A DNA stretch of 22,197 nt from a virus, in IMG/VR virus record IMGVR_UViG_3300021197_001694, positions 1 to 22,197 of that record; one strand, given 5' to 3'. A program made the translations under genes and the position numbers. The notes below the pieces were generated by a model. It did not search any database and was not told the origin of the DNA. It saw nothing but the letters and a program-made list of their open reading frames with translations. Below are positions 8,909 through 21,987 of the stretch, piece after piece (positions within the stretch are counted from its first letter, which is position 1; every line of letters starts with the position of its first letter).

Positions 8909-9484
8909 ATGCCATTTTGGACCAGCGCCCTATCAGAACCAAAAAGACAACATCGTTTTTTGGTTACCCTTCCTAACCTTGCAACCGCCGACGGACGTTT
9001 TGCATACCAGCAGTATCTGGCAAAGATTGCCGCAAAGCCTTCTTACCAGATCAATGAGGTGGAACACAAGTTCCTCGGTAACACTTACTACTACCCCGGC
9101 ACTGTTTCATGGCAGGCTGTGGACATCACCATCGTTAACGCCATCAACCCAGATGGTAACGCTCTGTTGATGGAGGCACTTACCCAGTCGGGTTACTTGC
9201 TTCCAGATGTACAGGAAGATGTTTTCACCAATCCATCGCAGAACCCAGGAACGCTTAACAAGTTTGATTCGGTTAATGCTCTGGGTAACGTTGTCATTGA
9301 GGAACTTAACGGTCAGGGCGGTCTTGTAGGCGAGTGGACCTTGAATAACTCCTTCTTGACACGAGCTACTTTTGGAAATCTTGACTATAATGGTGATGAA
9401 ATCCTTAATGTTGAGATGTCAATCAGGTATGATTGGGCTACGTATGTATCAGGTCCCGGTGTTGACGCTGCCGTCGACCTGTAG
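8909..9484 (+). CDS. gp19: Tail tube protein (gp19-like)
   Basis: 191 residues, close to T4 gp19 (163). The N-terminus MPFWTSALSEPKRQHRFLV, then KPSYQINEVEHKFLGNTYYY and PGTVSWQAVDITIVNAINPD, is the classic gp19 core, and the C-terminus has LDYNGDEILNVEMSIRYDWA. The protein polymerises into the rigid inner tube through which DNA passes. It directly follows the sheath gene, as in T4. AGGAG at about 8896 precedes the ATG. Codon use is strongly optimised, matching a high-copy virion protein. Confidence 0.92.
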   Translation: MPFWTSALSEPKRQHRFLVTLPNLATADGRFAYQQYLAKIAAKPSYQINEVEHKFLGNTYYYPGTVSWQAVDITIVNAINPDGNALLMEALTQSGYLLPDVQEDVFTNPSQNPGTLNKFDSVNALGNVVIEELNGQGGLVGEWTLNNSFLTRATFGNLDYNGDEILNVEMSIRYDWATYVSGPGVDAAVDL

Positions 9485-9498
9485 AAAGAAGGTGAATA

Positions 9499-10344
9499 GT
9501 GTCTAGGAGAAATAATCTAGAGCGGACAGGCGCCCCGCAAGCAGATGCGCCCGCACCATTAGAAATCGAAGGAGGCTCGGACCTTTTTGCTTTTGTAAAC
9601 CCGACGGAGTTTGTTGAACTCCCAAGTCGCGGTGCGTATTATCCCGAAGGGCACCCCCTTCACAATAAAGCTGTTATTGAGATCAAACACATGACAGCCA
9701 AGGAAGAAGATATTCTAACTTCCGAAGCGCTTTTAAGAAACGGACTAGCAGTCGATCGTCTCCTAGAATCGGTTATCATTGATAATCGTATTAAGGTAGC
9801 GGACCTGCTTCTTGGAGACAAGAATGCCATCTTGATTGCGACGCGCATGACAGGCTTTGGACCCTTCTATGAAGTAAATGCCACCTGTCCCTCATGCGAC
9901 CGCAAGTCGGATTATACTTTTAACCTCACCGAGCTTCAGACCCGCGAGGTCACGCTTGGCGATAATGTAGCCGACGAGGGCAACGGTGTGTTCTCTTTTG
10001 ATCTTCCGGTGAGTAAGGTTCGTATCTATGTGCGCCTTCTTACTACACGTGATGAAGATAACATTACATCTCTGCTTATTAGCAAAGACGGTACCACTGC
10101 TTCTAATCCTATTACGGGCTTACTTAAGGCTGTCGTAGTGGGAGCCAATGAGCACACCGACCCCGCCACTGTTCATAAGTTTATAGAGATGATGCCTATC
10201 CCAGATGTGAAGCATTTGCGCACTACTTATGAGAACCTTAAACCCGATGTTGACCTTCGTTTTGATTATACATGCCCCCTTTGCCACGAAGAAGGAAAGG
10301 TAGGTATGCCCTTGACGGCACAGTTTTTTTGGCCTGACCAGTAA
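9499..10344 (+). CDS. gp26: gp26-like baseplate / tail assembly protein, zero-frame product
   Basis: 281 residues with a GTG start at 9499 preceded by GAAGG at 9488-9492. The sequence VELPSRGAYYPEGHPLHNKA, then VIEIKHMTAKEEDILTS and NGLAVDRLLESVI, matches the family of T4 gp26, a baseplate hub subunit. Two CxxC pairs, C130/C133 (CPSC) and C259/C262 (CPLC), should form a zinc site. The gene lies between the tail tube and tape measure genes, which is where most tailed phages encode their tail assembly chaperone. Its last codons read CAG TTT TTT TGG CCT GAC CAG TAA. The T7 run lies only four codons before the stop, and a 60-codon frame continues in +1 (equivalent to -2). The zero-frame protein is therefore probably the major form of a two-product gene. 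Confidence 0.8.
   Translation: MSRRNNLERTGAPQADAPAPLEIEGGSDLFAFVNPTEFVELPSRGAYYPEGHPLHNKAVIEIKHMTAKEEDILTSEALLRNGLAVDRLLESVIIDNRIKVADLLLGDKNAILIATRMTGFGPFYEVNATCPSCDRKSDYTFNLTELQTREVTLGDNVADEGNGVFSFDLPVSKVRIYVRLLTTRDEDNITSLLISKDGTTASNPITGLLKAVVVGANEHTDPATVHKFIEMMPIPDVKHLRTTYENLKPDVDLRFDYTCPLCHEEGKVGMPLTAQFFWPDQ
10324..10330 (+). other. Candidate programmed frameshift site (T7 run)
   Basis: Seven consecutive T residues at the end of the gp26-like gene, read TTT TTT TGG in frame zero. A +1 slip of the P-site Phe tRNA (TTT at 10327-10329 to 10328-10330), or a -2 slip on the same run, enters the downstream frame at GGC (10331). The zero-frame stop TAA is at 10342. Shifts by +1 or -2 have precedents in phage structural genes (Listeria PSA and Mu). 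Confidence 0.6.
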
Positions 10345-10513
10345 GTACCAAGCAGCAGTCTACGAAGAGTTCTTTCTCCTTAAGCATCACGGCGGTTGGT
10401 CGTTCACAGAATTGTATAATTTGCCCATTGCTTTGCGCCGTTGGTTCCTCGAACGTTTATCGTCCGAGTTTAAGAAACAAAAGGAGCAAACGCAGAAAGC
10501 GAGAACAAAGTAA
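10331..10513 (+). CDS. Frameshift extension of the gp26-like gene (60 codons, no ordinary start)
   Basis: This frame, +1 relative to the gp26-like gene, is closed by TGA at 10313 and runs open to TAA at 10511. It translates as GLTSKYQAAVYEEFFLLKHH, then GGWSFTELYNLPIALRRWFL and ERLSSEFKKQKEQTQKARTK, a convincing protein with conserved-looking aromatic and Gly residues and a basic helical tail. It has no ATG or GTG; the first TTG (10412) is already past the conserved-looking part and lacks a Shine-Dalgarno site, and a CTG at 10334 also lacks one. The simplest reading is that it is made as a C-terminal extension of the upstream protein by frameshifting, giving about 337 residues. By analogy with lambda G/GT and other tail assembly chaperones, the fusion would bind the tape measure protein and the short form the tube protein. 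Low-level CTG initiation is the alternative. Confidence 0.65.
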   Translation, partial: GLTSKYQAAVYEEFFLLKHHGGWSFTELYNLPIALRRWFLERLSSEFKKQKEQTQKARTK

Positions 10514-10561: not shown

Positions 10562-10888
10562 ATGAGCAAATTAGTAAAACAAGCAATAGACCTTAACCAA
10601 ATTGGTAAACCCCTCACCGAAGCTTATTATACGGCTTTCGCGAATAAGGTACGGGATATGATGCTCGACCTTTATTATATGGGGTATGATGTCCCGATGA
10701 GTGTTACGGGCACCTCTGCACAAGTGGACTCATTCATGAAAGCCCTCAAGGGCGAAAAAAGGTACATGGATTCCTATCTCAAGCATGGACTTAATGATCC
10801 GGCAACAATGTCTTCTAAGCATGCTTTATCCAACTCCGTTAGACAATTTGAATTAGAGACTGGCTTAAGGTGGCCATTCAAAAACTAG
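10562..10888 (+). CDS. Small protein of unknown function between chaperone-like gene and tape measure
   Basis: 108 residues, not recognised. It is probably mostly helical, with an N-terminal SKLVKQAIDLNQIGKPLTEA, a Met/Tyr-rich stretch VRDMMLDLYYMGYDVP and a C-terminus ending GLRWPFKN. There is no signal peptide or membrane segment. The ribosome site is weak (TAGGA about 13 nt upstream), but a candidate late promoter stands immediately upstream and the tape measure gene starts 9 nt after the stop. The position suggests a tail or baseplate assembly role, but nothing in the sequence proves it. Confidence 0.7.
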   Translation: MSKLVKQAIDLNQIGKPLTEAYYTAFANKVRDMMLDLYYMGYDVPMSVTGTSAQVDSFMKALKGEKRYMDSYLKHGLNDPATMSSKHALSNSVRQFELETGLRWPFKN

Positions 10889-10897
10889 GAGTTTTAA

Positions 10898-12763
10898 ATG
10901 GCTACACTAGAAGAACTTAAACAAAGGCTCGAAGCCGAAGAGGCGCTCATCCAGATGGAGAATGAGCGTAAGGCTCAAATGAGCGACAGTATAGCGGACC
11001 TTAAGCTGGAACGCGCTCAACTGGAGAAGGGCACCGTCGCATACAGAGCCATGACGGCTCAGATCGCCGAAGAACTCCAAGAGCGCAGCGACCTCAACGC
11101 CCAAATCAAGCAGCAGACGGAAGATCTTAAGGCGCAAACTAAAGCCTACCAAGAGAACGAAAAGGTCGTTGCAAAGACGCAGGATCAATTGGAATCTCTT
11201 GCGGGGGGATTCCTATCTCTCAACACCAAGATGGGCAAGATGGCCCAGGGAATGTCCAACGGAGACATCAGCCTTAGTAAATTTGCCAAATCCGGAAAAG
11301 CAGGCGAATTCGCTCTTGGGCAACTAAAAGCCGCCGGCGCCAAAGTAGTCGACATGTTTATCGAGTTTGGTATGCAGCAAGATAAGGTCCTAGCCAACTT
11401 CCGCGCACAAACAGGCGCAGGTGATGAATTCAATGAGGTTATTCGCACTAGTGCACTGGACAATATCGCCCTAGGGGTTACTCTAGAGGAAACGGCTGGC
11501 GCCGTACGGGAACTCAAGAATGAGTATACCGATTTTACATACTTAAATGAGCAACAGCAGCGCGCTCTCACTAATACAACCACTATGCTTAACAAGTTGG
11601 GAATGAGCTTCTCGACACAAGCCTCCATCATGCAAACCGCAACCCAAGCCATGGGCATGGATGTGAAGCAAGCCAACAACCTGCTTGTGGATCTCGCATC
11701 TACCGCCCAATCCTTGGGAGTGGATGTTGAGAAACTAGGACAACAGTTTGCACAGAATGCCGATTTCCTAGTCCGGTTTGGTGAAGATGGTAAGGAAGTG
11801 TTTGAAGAGATGGCAGTAGCTGCCAAGGCTCTCGGCACCGAAATGAGTACTCTTGTTAAGGTAACTGACAAGTTCAAGACCTTTGATGAGGCTGGACGTT
11901 CTGTCGGACGCTTTAATGCAATCTTGGGCGGACCCTTCCTGAACTCTATGGACATGCTGAACGCCTCCTATGAGGACCCTATAGCGGGAATCCAGATGCT
12001 GCGAGAAGGCTTTGAGCAGGCTGGCAAGTCGGTTGAGGATTTAAGCGGAGCAGAACTCGAAGCATTTGCGAGCGCCCTTGGGCTCTCTACAACCGAAACA
12101 GTCGAGCTTTTAGGGAAATCGAATGAGGAATTGGAGCTTCAGCGTAAGACCCAGGAAGAAATGGCGGAAGCTGCCAGAAAGGCCCAGCCGGTGATGGATC
12201 AACTCTCTATGGCATTCAAGACGCTATTAGCCGATGGCAAGCCTTTGATAGACGTTTTCGTGCATCTTCTTGGTTATGTAGGGGACTTTGCCAAGTTCAT
12301 AGGATCCGCGGAGAACGCCATGGGCAAGTTTGTTAAAATTGGTATGGCTGCCGCAGGAATTGCAGCACTCGTCGGCGCCCCGTTTACTGGGGGGGCTTCC
12401 CTGATTACCTATGGGGCGATCGCGGGCACAGCCGGCTTAGCAGCGTTTGGCGGCGGAGGCGGCGGAGGCGGAGGCGGTGGAACCCCTCACTTCGCTACTG
12501 GCGGAACAGTCACCACTGAGCAGGCTATCGTTCACCCCGGCGAGATGCTGATTACAGGCGGACAGGGAACAGAGGTTGTCTCCCAGAAAGACTTTAAAGA
12601 ATTGCTAGACGGGCTGAAGAAGATGACAGCCAGCGGCGTTACCGGTGGTTCGCCAATACAGATCGCAGTCTACATCGGTCGGAAGAAGATTGACGATGTT
12701 GTGGTGGAAGCACTCAATTCACCAACAGGTAGGAAGGTCATAACCCCCTATTCTATGGTATAG
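10898..12763 (+). CDS. Tail tape measure protein (gp29 counterpart)
   Basis: 621 residues; T4 gp29 is 590. Residues 1-95 form a charged coiled coil (EELKQRLEAEEALIQ, IKQQTEDLKAQTKAY). The middle, about 120-450, is helical with Gln- and Ala-rich stretches. A hydrophobic region at about 478-517 (MAAAGIAALVGAPFTGG, AIAGTAGLAAFGG) could insert into the host membrane during DNA ejection. It is followed by a run of 11 glycines and the tape measure C-terminal signature PHFATGGTV, AIVHPGEMLITGGQGTEVV. The protein sets tail length, and its size predicts a tail slightly longer than that of T4 if the usual scaling holds. AGGAG precedes the ATG. It follows the chaperone-like frameshift cassette, the canonical tail-gene order. 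Confidence 0.85.
   Translation: MATLEELKQRLEAEEALIQMENERKAQMSDSIADLKLERAQLEKGTVAYRAMTAQIAEELQERSDLNAQIKQQTEDLKAQTKAYQENEKVVAKTQDQLESLAGGFLSLNTKMGKMAQGMSNGDISLSKFAKSGKAGEFALGQLKAAGAKVVDMFIEFGMQQDKVLANFRAQTGAGDEFNEVIRTSALDNIALGVTLEETAGAVRELKNEYTDFTYLNEQQQRALTNTTTMLNKLGMSFSTQASIMQTATQAMGMDVKQANNLLVDLASTAQSLGVDVEKLGQQFAQNADFLVRFGEDGKEVFEEMAVAAKALGTEMSTLVKVTDKFKTFDEAGRSVGRFNAILGGPFLNSMDMLNASYEDPIAGIQMLREGFEQAGKSVEDLSGAELEAFASALGLSTTETVELLGKSNEELELQRKTQEEMAEAARKAQPVMDQLSMAFKTLLADGKPLIDVFVHLLGYVGDFAKFIGSAENAMGKFVKIGMAAAGIAALVGAPFTGGASLITYGAIAGTAGLAAFGGGGGGGGGGGTPHFATGGTVTTEQAIVHPGEMLITGGQGTEVVSQKDFKELLDGLKKMTASGVTGGSPIQIAVYIGRKKIDDVVVEALNSPTGRKVITPYSMV
12449..12481 (+). repeat. GGN codon run encoding 11 glycines in the tape measure gene
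   Basis: A 33-base tract of GGC, GGA and GGT codons encodes residues 518-528, between the hydrophobic segment and the C-terminal domain. It probably forms a flexible linker. As a low-complexity repeat it could vary in length between relatives. Confidence 0.85.
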
Positions 12764-18816: not shown

Positions 18817-20004
18817 TTGCTTTTTCAGGTTCTAGACACAAAGGCAGATTGTGTCGGCTACTACGCCAATAATGTCATCTATCCCCAACGTAATCTCCCC
18901 CCGGAGGGGTCTACGTGGGACTACTCCCCGCATTTGCTCGGCAAAGACTACGAGATTGCCCGCATCTACAGCCAAGGAGCGACGATTACAGACGTTTGTC
19001 CGGAAGATATGAAGGCTGACTGGGAAAAGATCAAAAAGACGCTTAAATCGTGTCTCAAAGCCTTCCACACCTCTCGTATCTCAATGAATGAGAACTGTTT
19101 TTACGATTTGGTGCCGGAATACTTCCTCTATCAGTATCTGGAGGCAAAAAACAAGATAACACAGCACGTTTTGGATACCCATGTGCGCCCCGGCAACTAC
19201 CGCCACATGCAGAACCTCCTCGAACTGGTTACTGCCATCCGTGGACACGAACTTAATGTGGATATTGCCCCCATCCGCCACCTTTTAAGCTCGGTCAAGG
19301 GGCAGAACTTTCATCGTACCGTACAGTCCACGCGTCATGTGTGTGATTACAACCCATGGGGGACTGTCACGGGGCGACTGGCGTCAAATCCGAAGAGTTT
19401 CCCAGTTCTGACGATGGGTAAAGAGTTTCGTTCCTGCATAAAGCCAAAGAATGACTGGCTTGTGGAGTTGGATTTTAATGCGGCAGAGTTGCGAGTGTTG
19501 TTGGCGCTATCTGGTCAAGAGCAGCCCCAAAATGACATTCATGACTGGAATGTAAAGAACGTTTTTGGTGGCTCATTGAGCCGCGATGAAGCTAAGGTTA
19601 AGACTTTCGCATGGCTGTATTCTAGTAATGAAAACAAGGAGTTAGAGCGACTCTATACCAAGGATTTTGTGCGAAATAAGTACTGGGATGGCTTCAAAAT
19701 TACGACAGATTATGGTAGAATAATGGAGAACGTAGACGAGCACCATGCGCTCAACTACATCGTTCAAAGCACCACAATTGACATGGTGCACGAGCAGGCT
19801 TACAAGGTCTACGAGCTTTTGAAGGGGAGAAAAAGCCACATCGCATTTCTTATTCACGACGCTGTATATATTGATTTGGCCGACGAAGATCGATATGATT
19901 TGCTGAATTTGCTTGACACGTTCAAGAAAACGCGTTATGATATGTTCAAGGTTAACGTCTCCGCAGGAAAGAACCTCGGAGAGATGAAGGAATTAAAACT
20001 GTGA
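18817..20004 (+). CDS. polA: Family A DNA polymerase, compact, no exonuclease domain
   Basis: 395 residues from a TTG start at 18817, chosen because GGAGG (18808-18812) is just upstream and no ATG or GTG occurs nearby in frame. Polymerase motifs of the Pol I family are all present: TVTGRL (183-188), motif A ELDFNAAELR (217-226, catalytic D219), motif B R256-x3-K260-x3-F264-x3-Y268, QST (317-319) and motif C IHDA (346-349, catalytic D348). Phe264 corresponds to E. coli F762. The usual HDE of motif C is HDA: the Glu next to the catalytic Asp is missing. There is no 3'-5' or 5'-3' exonuclease domain, and the 180 residues before the first palm motif leave little room for a full thumb. Proofreading, if any, must come from another gene. 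T4 itself replicates with a family B enzyme, so this module has a different origin from the virion genes. Confidence 0.9.
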   Translation: MLFQVLDTKADCVGYYANNVIYPQRNLPPEGSTWDYSPHLLGKDYEIARIYSQGATITDVCPEDMKADWEKIKKTLKSCLKAFHTSRISMNENCFYDLVPEYFLYQYLEAKNKITQHVLDTHVRPGNYRHMQNLLELVTAIRGHELNVDIAPIRHLLSSVKGQNFHRTVQSTRHVCDYNPWGTVTGRLASNPKSFPVLTMGKEFRSCIKPKNDWLVELDFNAAELRVLLALSGQEQPQNDIHDWNVKNVFGGSLSRDEAKVKTFAWLYSSNENKELERLYTKDFVRNKYWDGFKITTDYGRIMENVDEHHALNYIVQSTTIDMVHEQAYKVYELLKGRKSHIAFLIHDAVYIDLADEDRYDLLNLLDTFKKTRYDMFKVNVSAGKNLGEMKELKL

Positions 20005-20318
20005 AGAAGATTTATCAAAAACTAGTGAGGGATCGCATCCCTGGAATTATTGCAGACGACGGAAAGTCCTTCGCCACCCGTAAGGCGGATGAGGAAGAGA
20101 TTATTTCCTATGCTTTTAAGAAGCTTCATGAAGAGGTTCAAGAATTCTCAGAGGACCCTTCTGCAGAAGAGGCTGCAGATGTGATGGAGATTTTTCACTT
20201 CTTGTGCGACAAACTAGGCATCCGCGATAGCGCCATCATGGCGCAAGCTACCTCCAAGCGCATCCTGCGCGGTGGCTTTGAGCAGGGTGTTATCCTTGAA
20301 TGGGTAGACGACGAATGA
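20001..20318 (+). CDS. MazG-like nucleotide pyrophosphohydrolase
   Basis: 105 residues. The GTG start at 20001 overlaps the polymerase stop (GTGA) and places the family signature YQKLVRDRIPGII at residues 5-17, right at the N-terminus as in known relatives. Metal-binding residues of the all-alpha NTP pyrophosphohydrolase fold are visible: E44, E45 and E48 (HEEVQEF) and E57/D60 (EEAADVMEI). The protein resembles the phosphoribosyl-ATP pyrophosphohydrolase / MazG-like group with the KLVRDKIP motif. Likely activity is hydrolysis of nucleoside triphosphates to monophosphates plus pyrophosphate, either cleansing aberrant dNTPs or altering host nucleotide signals. Coupling to the polymerase supports a role in nucleotide pools during phage replication. 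The natural substrate cannot be read from the sequence. Confidence 0.85.
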   Translation: MKKIYQKLVRDRIPGIIADDGKSFATRKADEEEIISYAFKKLHEEVQEFSEDPSAEEAADVMEIFHFLCDKLGIRDSAIMAQATSKRILRGGFEQGVILEWVDDE

Positions 20319-21184
20319 TTGTAGTAGGTCTAGGTAAGGCTGGTTGCAATATCGCGAAAGCTTTTGGAAAGTTTCCGCAGTATGAGACTTTTGGGATTGA
20401 CACCACCAAAGATGCCACGATCACCATTAAGTCAAGGTCCAGCCATGAAGAGTATGACACCTCTTTCCCAGATTTGCGACGCAAACTCAAGGCTAAAGAC
20501 GAGGATGTATTGGTGGTGACTAGTGGTGCCGGCAAGATTTCCGGCGGTATTCTACGACTTATGGAGCAACTTAAGACGCACAATCGGCTCCGAGTTCTCT
20601 ATATTCAACCGGACCTGTCACTCATGAGTGAAACTCAGAAAAAGCAGGAAAGGGTGGTCAAAAACGTGCTACAGGAGTATGCGCGATCAGGATTGGTAGA
20701 GCGAATATATCTGATCGACAACCTCGCCATCGAGCGCAGTATTGGCGAAGTCTCGATTGTTGGTTATTATGACACCCTTAATCACGCGGTGGTGAACACT
20801 ATCCACATGATTAACGTGTTTGAGAACACAGAGCCCATCCTAGGGAACTTTATTCAGCCACATGAGATCGCACGTATTGCCACCATCGGCGTGGTTATGA
20901 TGGACAACGAAGAAGAGACGAAAGATAAAGAAAACTGGTTTTACCACTTGACACGCCCTAGGGATGTGGTATACTACTATGGTATTGGAAAGGATGACCT
21001 TAAGAACGATGGTACACTCTTCGGAAGAATTAATCGCTTTGTTAAATCGAAGATCGAAGAAGGGCTTAACGTTTCTTACGGCGTCTTTGAAACAAGCTAT
21101 GAACAAAAATATTGTTATTGCATTAAATATTCATCTATGGTACAATCATATGGTGAACTACTAGACGATCAGGATATTGGCTGA
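20315..21184 (+). CDS. Divergent tubulin/FtsZ-like protein
   Basis: 289 residues from the ATG at 20315, which overlaps the previous stop (ATGA); an ATG at 20300 would add five residues before the first beta strand and has no better ribosome site. The FtsZ layout is visible in order: nucleotide-binding loop MIVVGLGKAGCNIAKAF (1-17), beta strand with GIDTTKDA (27-34, compare INTDxQAL), the signature-loop position VLVVTSGAGKISGGILRL (65-82, compare the FtsZ GGGTGTG loop), RVLYIQPD (93-100), RIYLIDN (130-136, compare VIPN) and a T7-loop-like FIQPHEIARIATIG (179-192, compare INxDFADVR). The key GTPase residues are altered: GGGTGTG is SGAGKISGG, and the NxD of the T7 loop is QPH followed by E184. 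It may bind nucleotide without normal polymer-coupled hydrolysis. Jumbo phages use a related tubulin, PhuZ, to position DNA; whether this protein polymerises is unknown. Confidence 0.7.
   Translation: MIVVGLGKAGCNIAKAFGKFPQYETFGIDTTKDATITIKSRSSHEEYDTSFPDLRRKLKAKDEDVLVVTSGAGKISGGILRLMEQLKTHNRLRVLYIQPDLSLMSETQKKQERVVKNVLQEYARSGLVERIYLIDNLAIERSIGEVSIVGYYDTLNHAVVNTIHMINVFENTEPILGNFIQPHEIARIATIGVVMMDNEEETKDKENWFYHLTRPRDVVYYYGIGKDDLKNDGTLFGRINRFVKSKIEEGLNVSYGVFETSYEQKYCYCIKYSSMVQSYGELLDDQDIG
20948..20975 (+). promoter_or_regulatory. Sigma70-like promoter inside the FtsZ-like gene
   Basis: TTGACA (20948-20953), 16-nt spacer, TATACT (20970-20975), with TGG just before the -10. It is 241 nt upstream of the single-strand DNA-binding gene and inside coding sequence. 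It shares a perfect -35 and the TGG extended -10 with the element at 18743, and both spacers contain CCCTAGG. Confidence 0.5.
21118..21146 (+). promoter_or_regulatory. Sigma70-like promoter for the gp32-like gene
   Basis: TTGCAT (21118-21123), 17-nt spacer, TACAAT (21141-21146), again with TGG before the -10. It ends 70 nt before the ATG of the single-strand DNA-binding gene, within the last codons of the FtsZ-like gene. Together with the promoter at 20948 it would give strong separate expression of a protein needed in high copy. Confidence 0.55.
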
Positions 21185-21216: not shown

Positions 21217-21987
21217 ATGGGTATCAATTTAGACAAGATGAGAGAGAAGCTCTCGTCACTACGTGGAGACGGCAACTCAAATGACACATTCTGGCGACCG
21301 GAAGACGGCGATCAGGATATTCGGATCGTTCCGACAGCTGACGGCGATCCCTTCAAGGAGATGTGGTTTCACTACAATCTCGAAAAGGGCGGCTTCCTAT
21401 GCCCCAAGCGCAACTTCGGTGACGAATGTCCCGTGTGCGACTTTGCTTCGCAGCTTTGGCGCGAAGGCGTTGATAATAACGACGAGCACAGCAAGAAGAC
21501 CGCTAAAAGCCTTTTTGTACGACAGCGATTCTTCAGCCCCGTCATGGTACGTGGAGAAGAAGACAAGGGTGTGCGTATCTGGGGTTACGGCAAAATGGCT
21601 TATGAGAGTTTGTTGACGCTTGTACTGAACCCCGAGTATGGTGATGTAACTGATACTGAGACCGGCACCGACCTTACACTGACGTATGGTAAGCCCCCGG
21701 GAGCATCTTTCCCGCAGACCAAGCTGGTGCCACGCCGACGTTCGTCTTCTCTTTGTGAGGATATGACCCCTGAGAAGTGCACCGAACTGCTTGACGGCAT
21801 TCCGGAGTTTTCGGGACTGTTCGAGCGCAAGGCAACAGCTGATGTTCAGACTATCTTGGACAACTTTGTTAACTCCCAGGTCACCGACCCGGAAAGCGTT
21901 AGCACAGAGACGACCAAGTACGGTACTAAAACTGAAGGCGAAGGCAACGCAGTTGACAACGCCTTTGCGGAGCTTGGCGCTCTTTAA
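21217..21987 (+). CDS. gp32: Single-strand DNA-binding protein (gp32-like)
   Basis: 256 residues; T4 gp32 is 301. AAGGAG lies nine bases before the ATG. The N-terminal INLDKMREKLSSL resembles the basic/amphipathic self-association arm of gp32. The zinc ligands H52, C62, C71 and C74 (FHYNLEKGGFLC, then DECPVC) match the H-x12-C-x9-C-x2-C site of T4 gp32 with slightly shorter spacing. The OB-fold core continues with WRPEDGDQDIRIVPT before and SLFVRQRFFSPVMVRGEEDK and VRIWGYGKMAYESLLTLVLN after the zinc loop. The C-terminal tail (TEGEGNAVDNAFAELGAL) is acidic but less so than that of T4; such tails recruit replication partners. It coats single-stranded DNA during replication and recombination and fits the polymerase upstream. 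Confidence 0.88.
   Translation: MGINLDKMREKLSSLRGDGNSNDTFWRPEDGDQDIRIVPTADGDPFKEMWFHYNLEKGGFLCPKRNFGDECPVCDFASQLWREGVDNNDEHSKKTAKSLFVRQRFFSPVMVRGEEDKGVRIWGYGKMAYESLLTLVLNPEYGDVTDTETGTDLTLTYGKPPGASFPQTKLVPRRRSSSLCEDMTPEKCTELLDGIPEFSGLFERKATADVQTILDNFVNSQVTDPESVSTETTKYGTKTEGEGNAVDNAFAELGAL

Follow-up and report, generated by a model that had tools for sequence, protein, structure and literature searches.

Comparison with its relatives makes it very probable that the gp26-like gene studied here encodes a tail assembly chaperone and is read with a programmed +1 ribosomal frameshift. The DNA analyzed was an IMG/VR virus record of 22,197 bases (the window), a T4-like morphogenesis region that encodes a Gp23-type capsid protein, the sheath and the tube, followed by the gp26-like gene, the +1 frame, a 108-aa ORF and the tape measure protein. 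Comparison of related loci established a conserved +1 frame, purifying selection on that frame, a dual-coded site and codons compatible with slippage; the shift itself, its rate and the chaperone function are what we infer. Most ribosomes would stop at TAA 10342-10344 and release a 281-aa short form (G). In a minority, the peptidyl-tRNA-Phe on UUU 10327-10329, with UGG waiting in the A site, would re-pair on UUU 10328-10330, after which GGC 10331 and then CUG would be read, giving a 337-aa GT fusion whose last 60 residues would be a three-helix T domain. The predicted junction in the fusion is ...AQFFGLTSK..., that is, FF-GL for a +1 shift (FFF-GL for a -2 shift). On the model of lambda G/GT, the role of G would be to coat the tape measure protein and that of T to bring in tail tube subunits.

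Table 1. Features of the window around the proposed frameshift site.
Feature	Coordinates	Strand	Evidence
Tail tube gene	8909..9484	+	phrog_4542, E 1e-17
gp26-like gene, proposed G (short) tail assembly chaperone; 281 aa, GTG start, two CxxC pairs	9499..10344	+	PF12322 T4_baseplate, E 3e-15; phrog_150 baseplate hub, E 7e-17
SD-like AAGGAAAGGTAGG, then 0-frame ATG 10306-10308	10292..10308	+	Anti-SD pairing against synonymous shuffles
TGA closing the +1 frame just 5' of the slip site	10313..10315	+	Reading frames
T7 run, proposed slippery site	10324..10330	+	NTT P-site codon then T in 100/100 clusters; CTT and TTC-TTT variants
Dual-coded TGG CCT: W-P in frame 0, G-L (GGC CTN) in +1	10330..10335	+	CCT in 99/100 clusters
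Start-less +1 frame, T domain (60 aa + stop), DUF6760-like; would form the C-terminal part of a 337-aa GT fusion	10331..10513	+	Homologous frame in relatives; dN/dS
108-aa ORF between T and the tape measure gene	10562..10888	+	DUF7403 match, E 5e-4, sub-threshold
Tape measure protein gene	10898..12763	+	phrog_58, E 9e-15

The gp26-like product scored 56.9 bits against PF12322 (T4_baseplate), for which the curated cut-off is 24.5, and PHROG matches placed the gene and the T frame between the tube and tape measure genes. The initial annotation had predicted the G role for the gp26 family and the T role for the 60-codon frame. This position favors that assignment, as does the homology of T to cyanophage gp51, with a chain from there to the C-terminus of T4 gp51, and it agrees with the published T4 chaperone assignments as cited in PMC10885494 and PMC12846349. 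The 108-aa ORF possibly encodes a further tail assembly factor. Elsewhere in the window, a 395-aa ORF near the structural genes (18817-20004, TTG start as listed) matched DNA polymerase family A (PF00476, E 5e-16), and a gp32-like protein is encoded at 21217-21987. A 294-aa ORF (20300-21184) containing 'VVGLGKAGCNIAKAF' and 'VVTSGAGKISGG' recalls a tubulin/FtsZ-like nucleotide-binding protein and had no match in Pfam.

The 3' end of the gp26-like ORF reads CAG TTT TTT TGG CCT GAC CAG TAA, and the slip site in the window is TTTTTTTGGCCT. The T7 run lies four codons ahead of the gp26-like stop, as initially reported, and deletion of one T from it joins the gp26-like and T frames. The +1 frame is bounded by a TGA and by TAA 10511-10513. 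Since the TGA, 11 nt 5' of the T7 run, closes the frame, entry into the T frame is limited to positions 10316-10332. From GGC 10331 the frame runs for exactly 60 codons (10331-10510, GLTSKYQAAVYEEFF...KARTK), and the reading frames confirmed both this length and the reported absence of ATG and GTG; only internal TTGs were found. The window T frame was not recognized by PHROGs. The other (-1) frame 3' of the gp26 stop was short, and it was not conserved among the gp26 relatives checked.

Conservation of the T frame was examined in a first set of 80 viral loci, retrieved with gp26 as query, and in later sets obtained by further scans and searched with an iterated T-domain profile. In all loci of the first set with a usable 3' end, a homologous frame was present in the same +1 phase, with the pattern FFGL..Y...VYEEFF.LKHHGGWSF.E.YNLP..LRRWF; the proposed comparison of related gp26-like genes thus gave a same-phase frame after each gene and a conserved slippery run. 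The iterated profile detected the T domain in 317 of 322 loci, and the remaining 5 were cut by contig ends, with T visible by eye. T was in +1 after gp26 in 242 of the 243 non-cyanophage relatives, including all window-like (82), immuto-like (93) and Mel-JY01-like (62) loci, 4 of which were contig-cut and judged by eye. The same phase was seen in Microcystis phage Mel-JY01, Flavobacterium phage immuto 2-6A, Bacillus phage SP-15, Listeria phage LIS04, Streptococcus phage GXN1 and the 484-kb LR756508; SP-15 gp26, used as query against the viral contigs, matched SP-15 alone. T was in -1 in all 79 P-SSM2-like cyanophage loci, and in the huge phage LR756511 it was an ORF with its own ATG. Where deposited phages are annotated, the T region was a gap, a truncated ORF, or had a start called within gp26. 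Beyond the 0-frame stop, the three clades gave raw dN/dS values of 0.19, 0.18 and 0.24 for the T frame and values above 1 for the other two frames; these ratios indicate that the T frame is under purifying selection. The protein-like character first noticed in its translation is far beyond chance, given the same-phase homologues in every window-like relative, the dN/dS of 0.18-0.24 and the near-invariant slip codons.

For the slip site, 233 loci that carry the standard anchor were compared across the three large +1 clades; at 80% identity over the 180 nt upstream they formed 100 clusters. In frame 0, the codon just ahead of TGG (or TAC) was TTT in 92 clusters and CTT in 8, and the next base was T in all 100; the sites thus took the forms TTT_TGG, CTT_TGG and TTT_TAC (NTT-T). 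Simple probabilities for these counts leave shared ancestry out of account, and no weight is placed on them. TTC stood at this codon in none of the 100 clusters, although it makes up about a quarter of the Phe codons in these genes. Taken alone, the NTT pattern could also be explained by a conserved Phe in the +1 frame. The next Pro codon was CCT in 99 clusters, in comparison with 0.21-0.44 of Pro codons elsewhere, and the lone exception, TCT, retained the +1 Leu. Because CCT supplies the Leu of the +1 G-L, the +1 frame is already in use at that point. Some sites count against the proposed slip: three distinct immuto-like sequences (TTT CTA TGG) and LR756508 (TTT CTA TTC) require a slip one codon earlier (UUU_C), and an earlier-codon slip is also required at the LIS04 site, TTT TTT AGT.

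Translation signals upstream of the site were also analyzed. The initial annotation saw no ribosome site for the T frame. An SD-like stretch, AAGGAAAGGTAGG at 10292-10304, is in fact present, but the claim held in so far as only 0-frame ATG and TTG codons follow it and no +1-frame start does. In E. coli prfB, the slip occurs on CUU_U with the SD 3 nt upstream; the SD-like stretch in the window lies about 20 nt 5' of the slip, beyond the usual prfB spacing. In each of the three +1 clades, anti-SD pairing at the stretch exceeded that of synonymous shuffles (z -8.6 in the window clade), a sign of selection beyond codon usage. At prfB spacing, the SD-like signal was weak in the window clade and went little beyond amino-acid constraint in the other two. 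A 0-frame ATG follows the SD-like stretch in many relatives (ATG 10306 in the window). The stretch may serve a T-only form started through the same shift, or ribosome pausing.

Several other explanations of the locus were weighed. The initial annotation allowed a shift of either +1 or -2, and the +1 part stood. The T7 run by itself permits UUU to re-pair two bases back, as in a Mu-type -2 shift. However, the frame is unchanged in relatives with TTT CTT TGG or TTC TTT TGG, where a -2 move would pair tRNA-Leu with UUC or tRNA-Phe with UCU; because these variants lack -2 re-pairing, the shift is read as +1, and a -2 shift is very improbable. As deletion of a single T fuses the frames, T7 might also be a homopolymer error for T6 in one continuous ORF, or polymerase slippage might make the fusion. 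We regard such an artefact as extremely improbable: the same phase recurs in scores of independent contigs and several deposited phage genomes, and 28 distinct sequences in which the T run is interrupted by C (TTTCTTTGG) keep the +1 arrangement, so that neither slippage of the polymerase nor a T6 misread as T7 can serve as a general explanation.

It is improbable, too, that T is a separate small protein made without frameshifting from an internal or non-AUG start, perhaps by way of the SD-like stretch. The pairing strength of that stretch would suit such a protein, as would the T ORFs with their own ATG in LR756511 and cyanophage gp51, the Actinomycetota DUF6760 genes that look separate with NTGA overlaps, and a GGAGGT followed by a T-frame GTG in one window-like subclade. 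However, the upstream TGA and the lack of ATG and GTG in the window T frame argue against it. Of 59 distinct window-like sequences, 40, the window among them, lacked ATG, GTG and TTG between the T-frame opening and 12 codons beyond the slip, and T-frame pairs of SD and start were not enriched over synonymous shuffles (9 vs 7.6, 0 vs 3.3 and 5 vs 3.6). A separate protein would also leave the conservation of NTT_T TGG CCT unexplained. Slightly less probable again is that translation starts in frame 0 at ATG 10306 and then undergoes the same +1 shift, which would give a free T of about 68 aa besides or in place of GT. An AAGGA lies 9 nt ahead of this ATG, the SD-like strength exceeds that of synonymous shuffles in the three +1 clades, and 0-frame pairs of SD and start were moderately enriched (23 vs 18.2; 15 vs 7.3), but the start codon is not conserved, being mostly ATT in immuto-like phages, and the frameshift is needed all the same.

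The fusion predicted by the +1 reading was modelled. Residues 36-150 (the N-terminal domain) were modelled confidently, the middle was uncertain, and T formed three helices with a pLDDT of about 80-92. The N-terminal domain modelled alone had a mean pLDDT of 92.5, and its top PDB match by E-value was the HK97 tail assembly chaperone 2ob9 (probability 0.28, TM 0.33/0.38), which at E 1.2 is only a hint. The PDB fold searches gave no match at E<=0.001.

The relation of T to T4, cyanophage and DUF6760 proteins was examined by profile methods. T4 has a second PF12322 protein, gp51, which is longer at its C-terminus by about 50 residues, and the cyanophage T domain (annotated gp51) matched this extension with 94-95% probability in profile comparison. 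The window T domain was linked to the cyanophage T by the iterated profile; HHalign of the window T profile directly against T4 gp51 was not significant, so the cyanophage intermediate is the only link. A homology test of the T4 gp51 C-terminus gave an HMM score of 9.3, which 2 of 2000 shuffles reached. From these comparisons, gp51 of T4 probably carries T as an in-frame fusion, and the simplest reading is of one G-T module, with a +1 shift here and duplication plus in-frame fusion in T4. In cyanophages, an invariant NNT TTT TTC (the U_UUU_UUC heptamer) ends gp26 ahead of the gp51 ORF in 62 distinct sequences. As TTC accounts for 15% of the Phe codons in the rest of these genes, -1 frameshifting besides the ATG start is likely, and cyanophage T is probably expressed by a -1 shift and/or its own start. 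Against DUF6760 (PF20546), the window T scored 16.8-17.1 bits, under the Pfam cut-off of 27, and for this reason it is named DUF6760-like only; DUF6760 matches at E<=0.01 were found in 9 of 39 T frames (best 3.4e-5). Among 397 genomes sampled from the phylum Actinomycetota, 21 carried DUF6760 (T-like) domains, and none was present in the 36 genomes of the class tried first. Inspected by eye in the readable loci, the Actinomycetota DUF6760 ORFs come after tube-like and CxxC genes, and each begins in another frame with an NTGA overlap on the stop of the CxxC gene before it. Such loci probably belong to contractile injection systems in which T has a gene of its own.

A wider reading, which is possible though we hold it unlikely, is that of an ancestral G-T module with at least four decodings (+1 at NUU_U; -1 at U_UUU_UUC; duplication and fusion in T4; a separate-start gene) and, in the +1 lineage, a T-only isoform made via the internal SD. 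Within this four-way reading, a +1 frameshift at NUU_U would be the decoding in the window and most uncultured relatives, and a separate-start T gene that of LR756511 and probably also of contractile injection systems. If the +1 frameshift is true, many T4-like phages frameshift, in the rarer +1 direction and at a prfB-like site, and the two-gene solution of T4 is one alternative among several. It would also link gp51 and the DUF6760-like proteins with tail chaperoning. The start-less T gene, which deposited phage annotations omit or truncate, would then have a name, and the relatives would supply natural +1 slip sites (UUU_U, CUU_U) to work on.

The chaperone frameshift of long-tailed phages has been described as conserved 'except T4' (PMC5009743). 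T4 has been the stated exception, and the initial remark that accounts of T4 do not usually include a frameshift of this kind is correct. The G/GT kind of chaperone pair is already known. As in lambda G/GT, the genes lie between tube and tape measure and a short protein would be accompanied by a minor frameshift-extended form; unlike in lambda, where the shift is -1, the shift here would be +1, and the short protein is a member of the gp26 family of T4 (PF12322). T4-like chaperones are reported to comprise a short gene and a longer fusion gene (Vladimirov, Gautam & Davidson 2022, as cited in PMC10885494 and PMC12846349). T4 gp26/gp51 share the family and the short and long forms with the window, but T4 has a separate gp26 and a longer paralogue, gp51, the last ~50 aa of which probably correspond to T, whereas the window has one gene and a +1 shift. 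According to a 2025 paper, Vladimirov 2022 described -1 sites at poly-T runs of T4-like phages, and the -1 part may therefore be known already. No description of a +1 mode for the gp26 family turned up in the literature searched, which did not include Vladimirov 2022. The gp26/gp51 of P-SSM2-type cyanophages are likewise a homologous G followed by a homologous T, but that T is in -1, has its own ATG and is preceded by the invariant U_UUU_UUC, which is the proposed site of SPP1 gp17.5. A +1 frameshift with UUU at the slip (TTT-CGC) has been proposed for the chaperones of the haloarchaeal myoviruses HSTV-2 and the HF1 group (PMC7230728, PMC5009743); unlike the window, these are archaeal viruses, and their chaperones showed no resemblance to gp26 by eye. 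A +1 shift is also described for the major tail protein of PSA (PMC5009743). Re-pairing of the P-site tRNA in +1 is shared with E. coli prfB (CUU_U), influenza PA-X (UUU_CGU) and the major tail proteins of Listeria PSA and SPP1 (CCC_U), and the prfB-type CUU_U is used by immuto-like phages and the PA-X-type UUU_CGU is found in GXN1. In those other genes a stop or rare codon occupies the A site, whereas in the window group it is mostly UGG.
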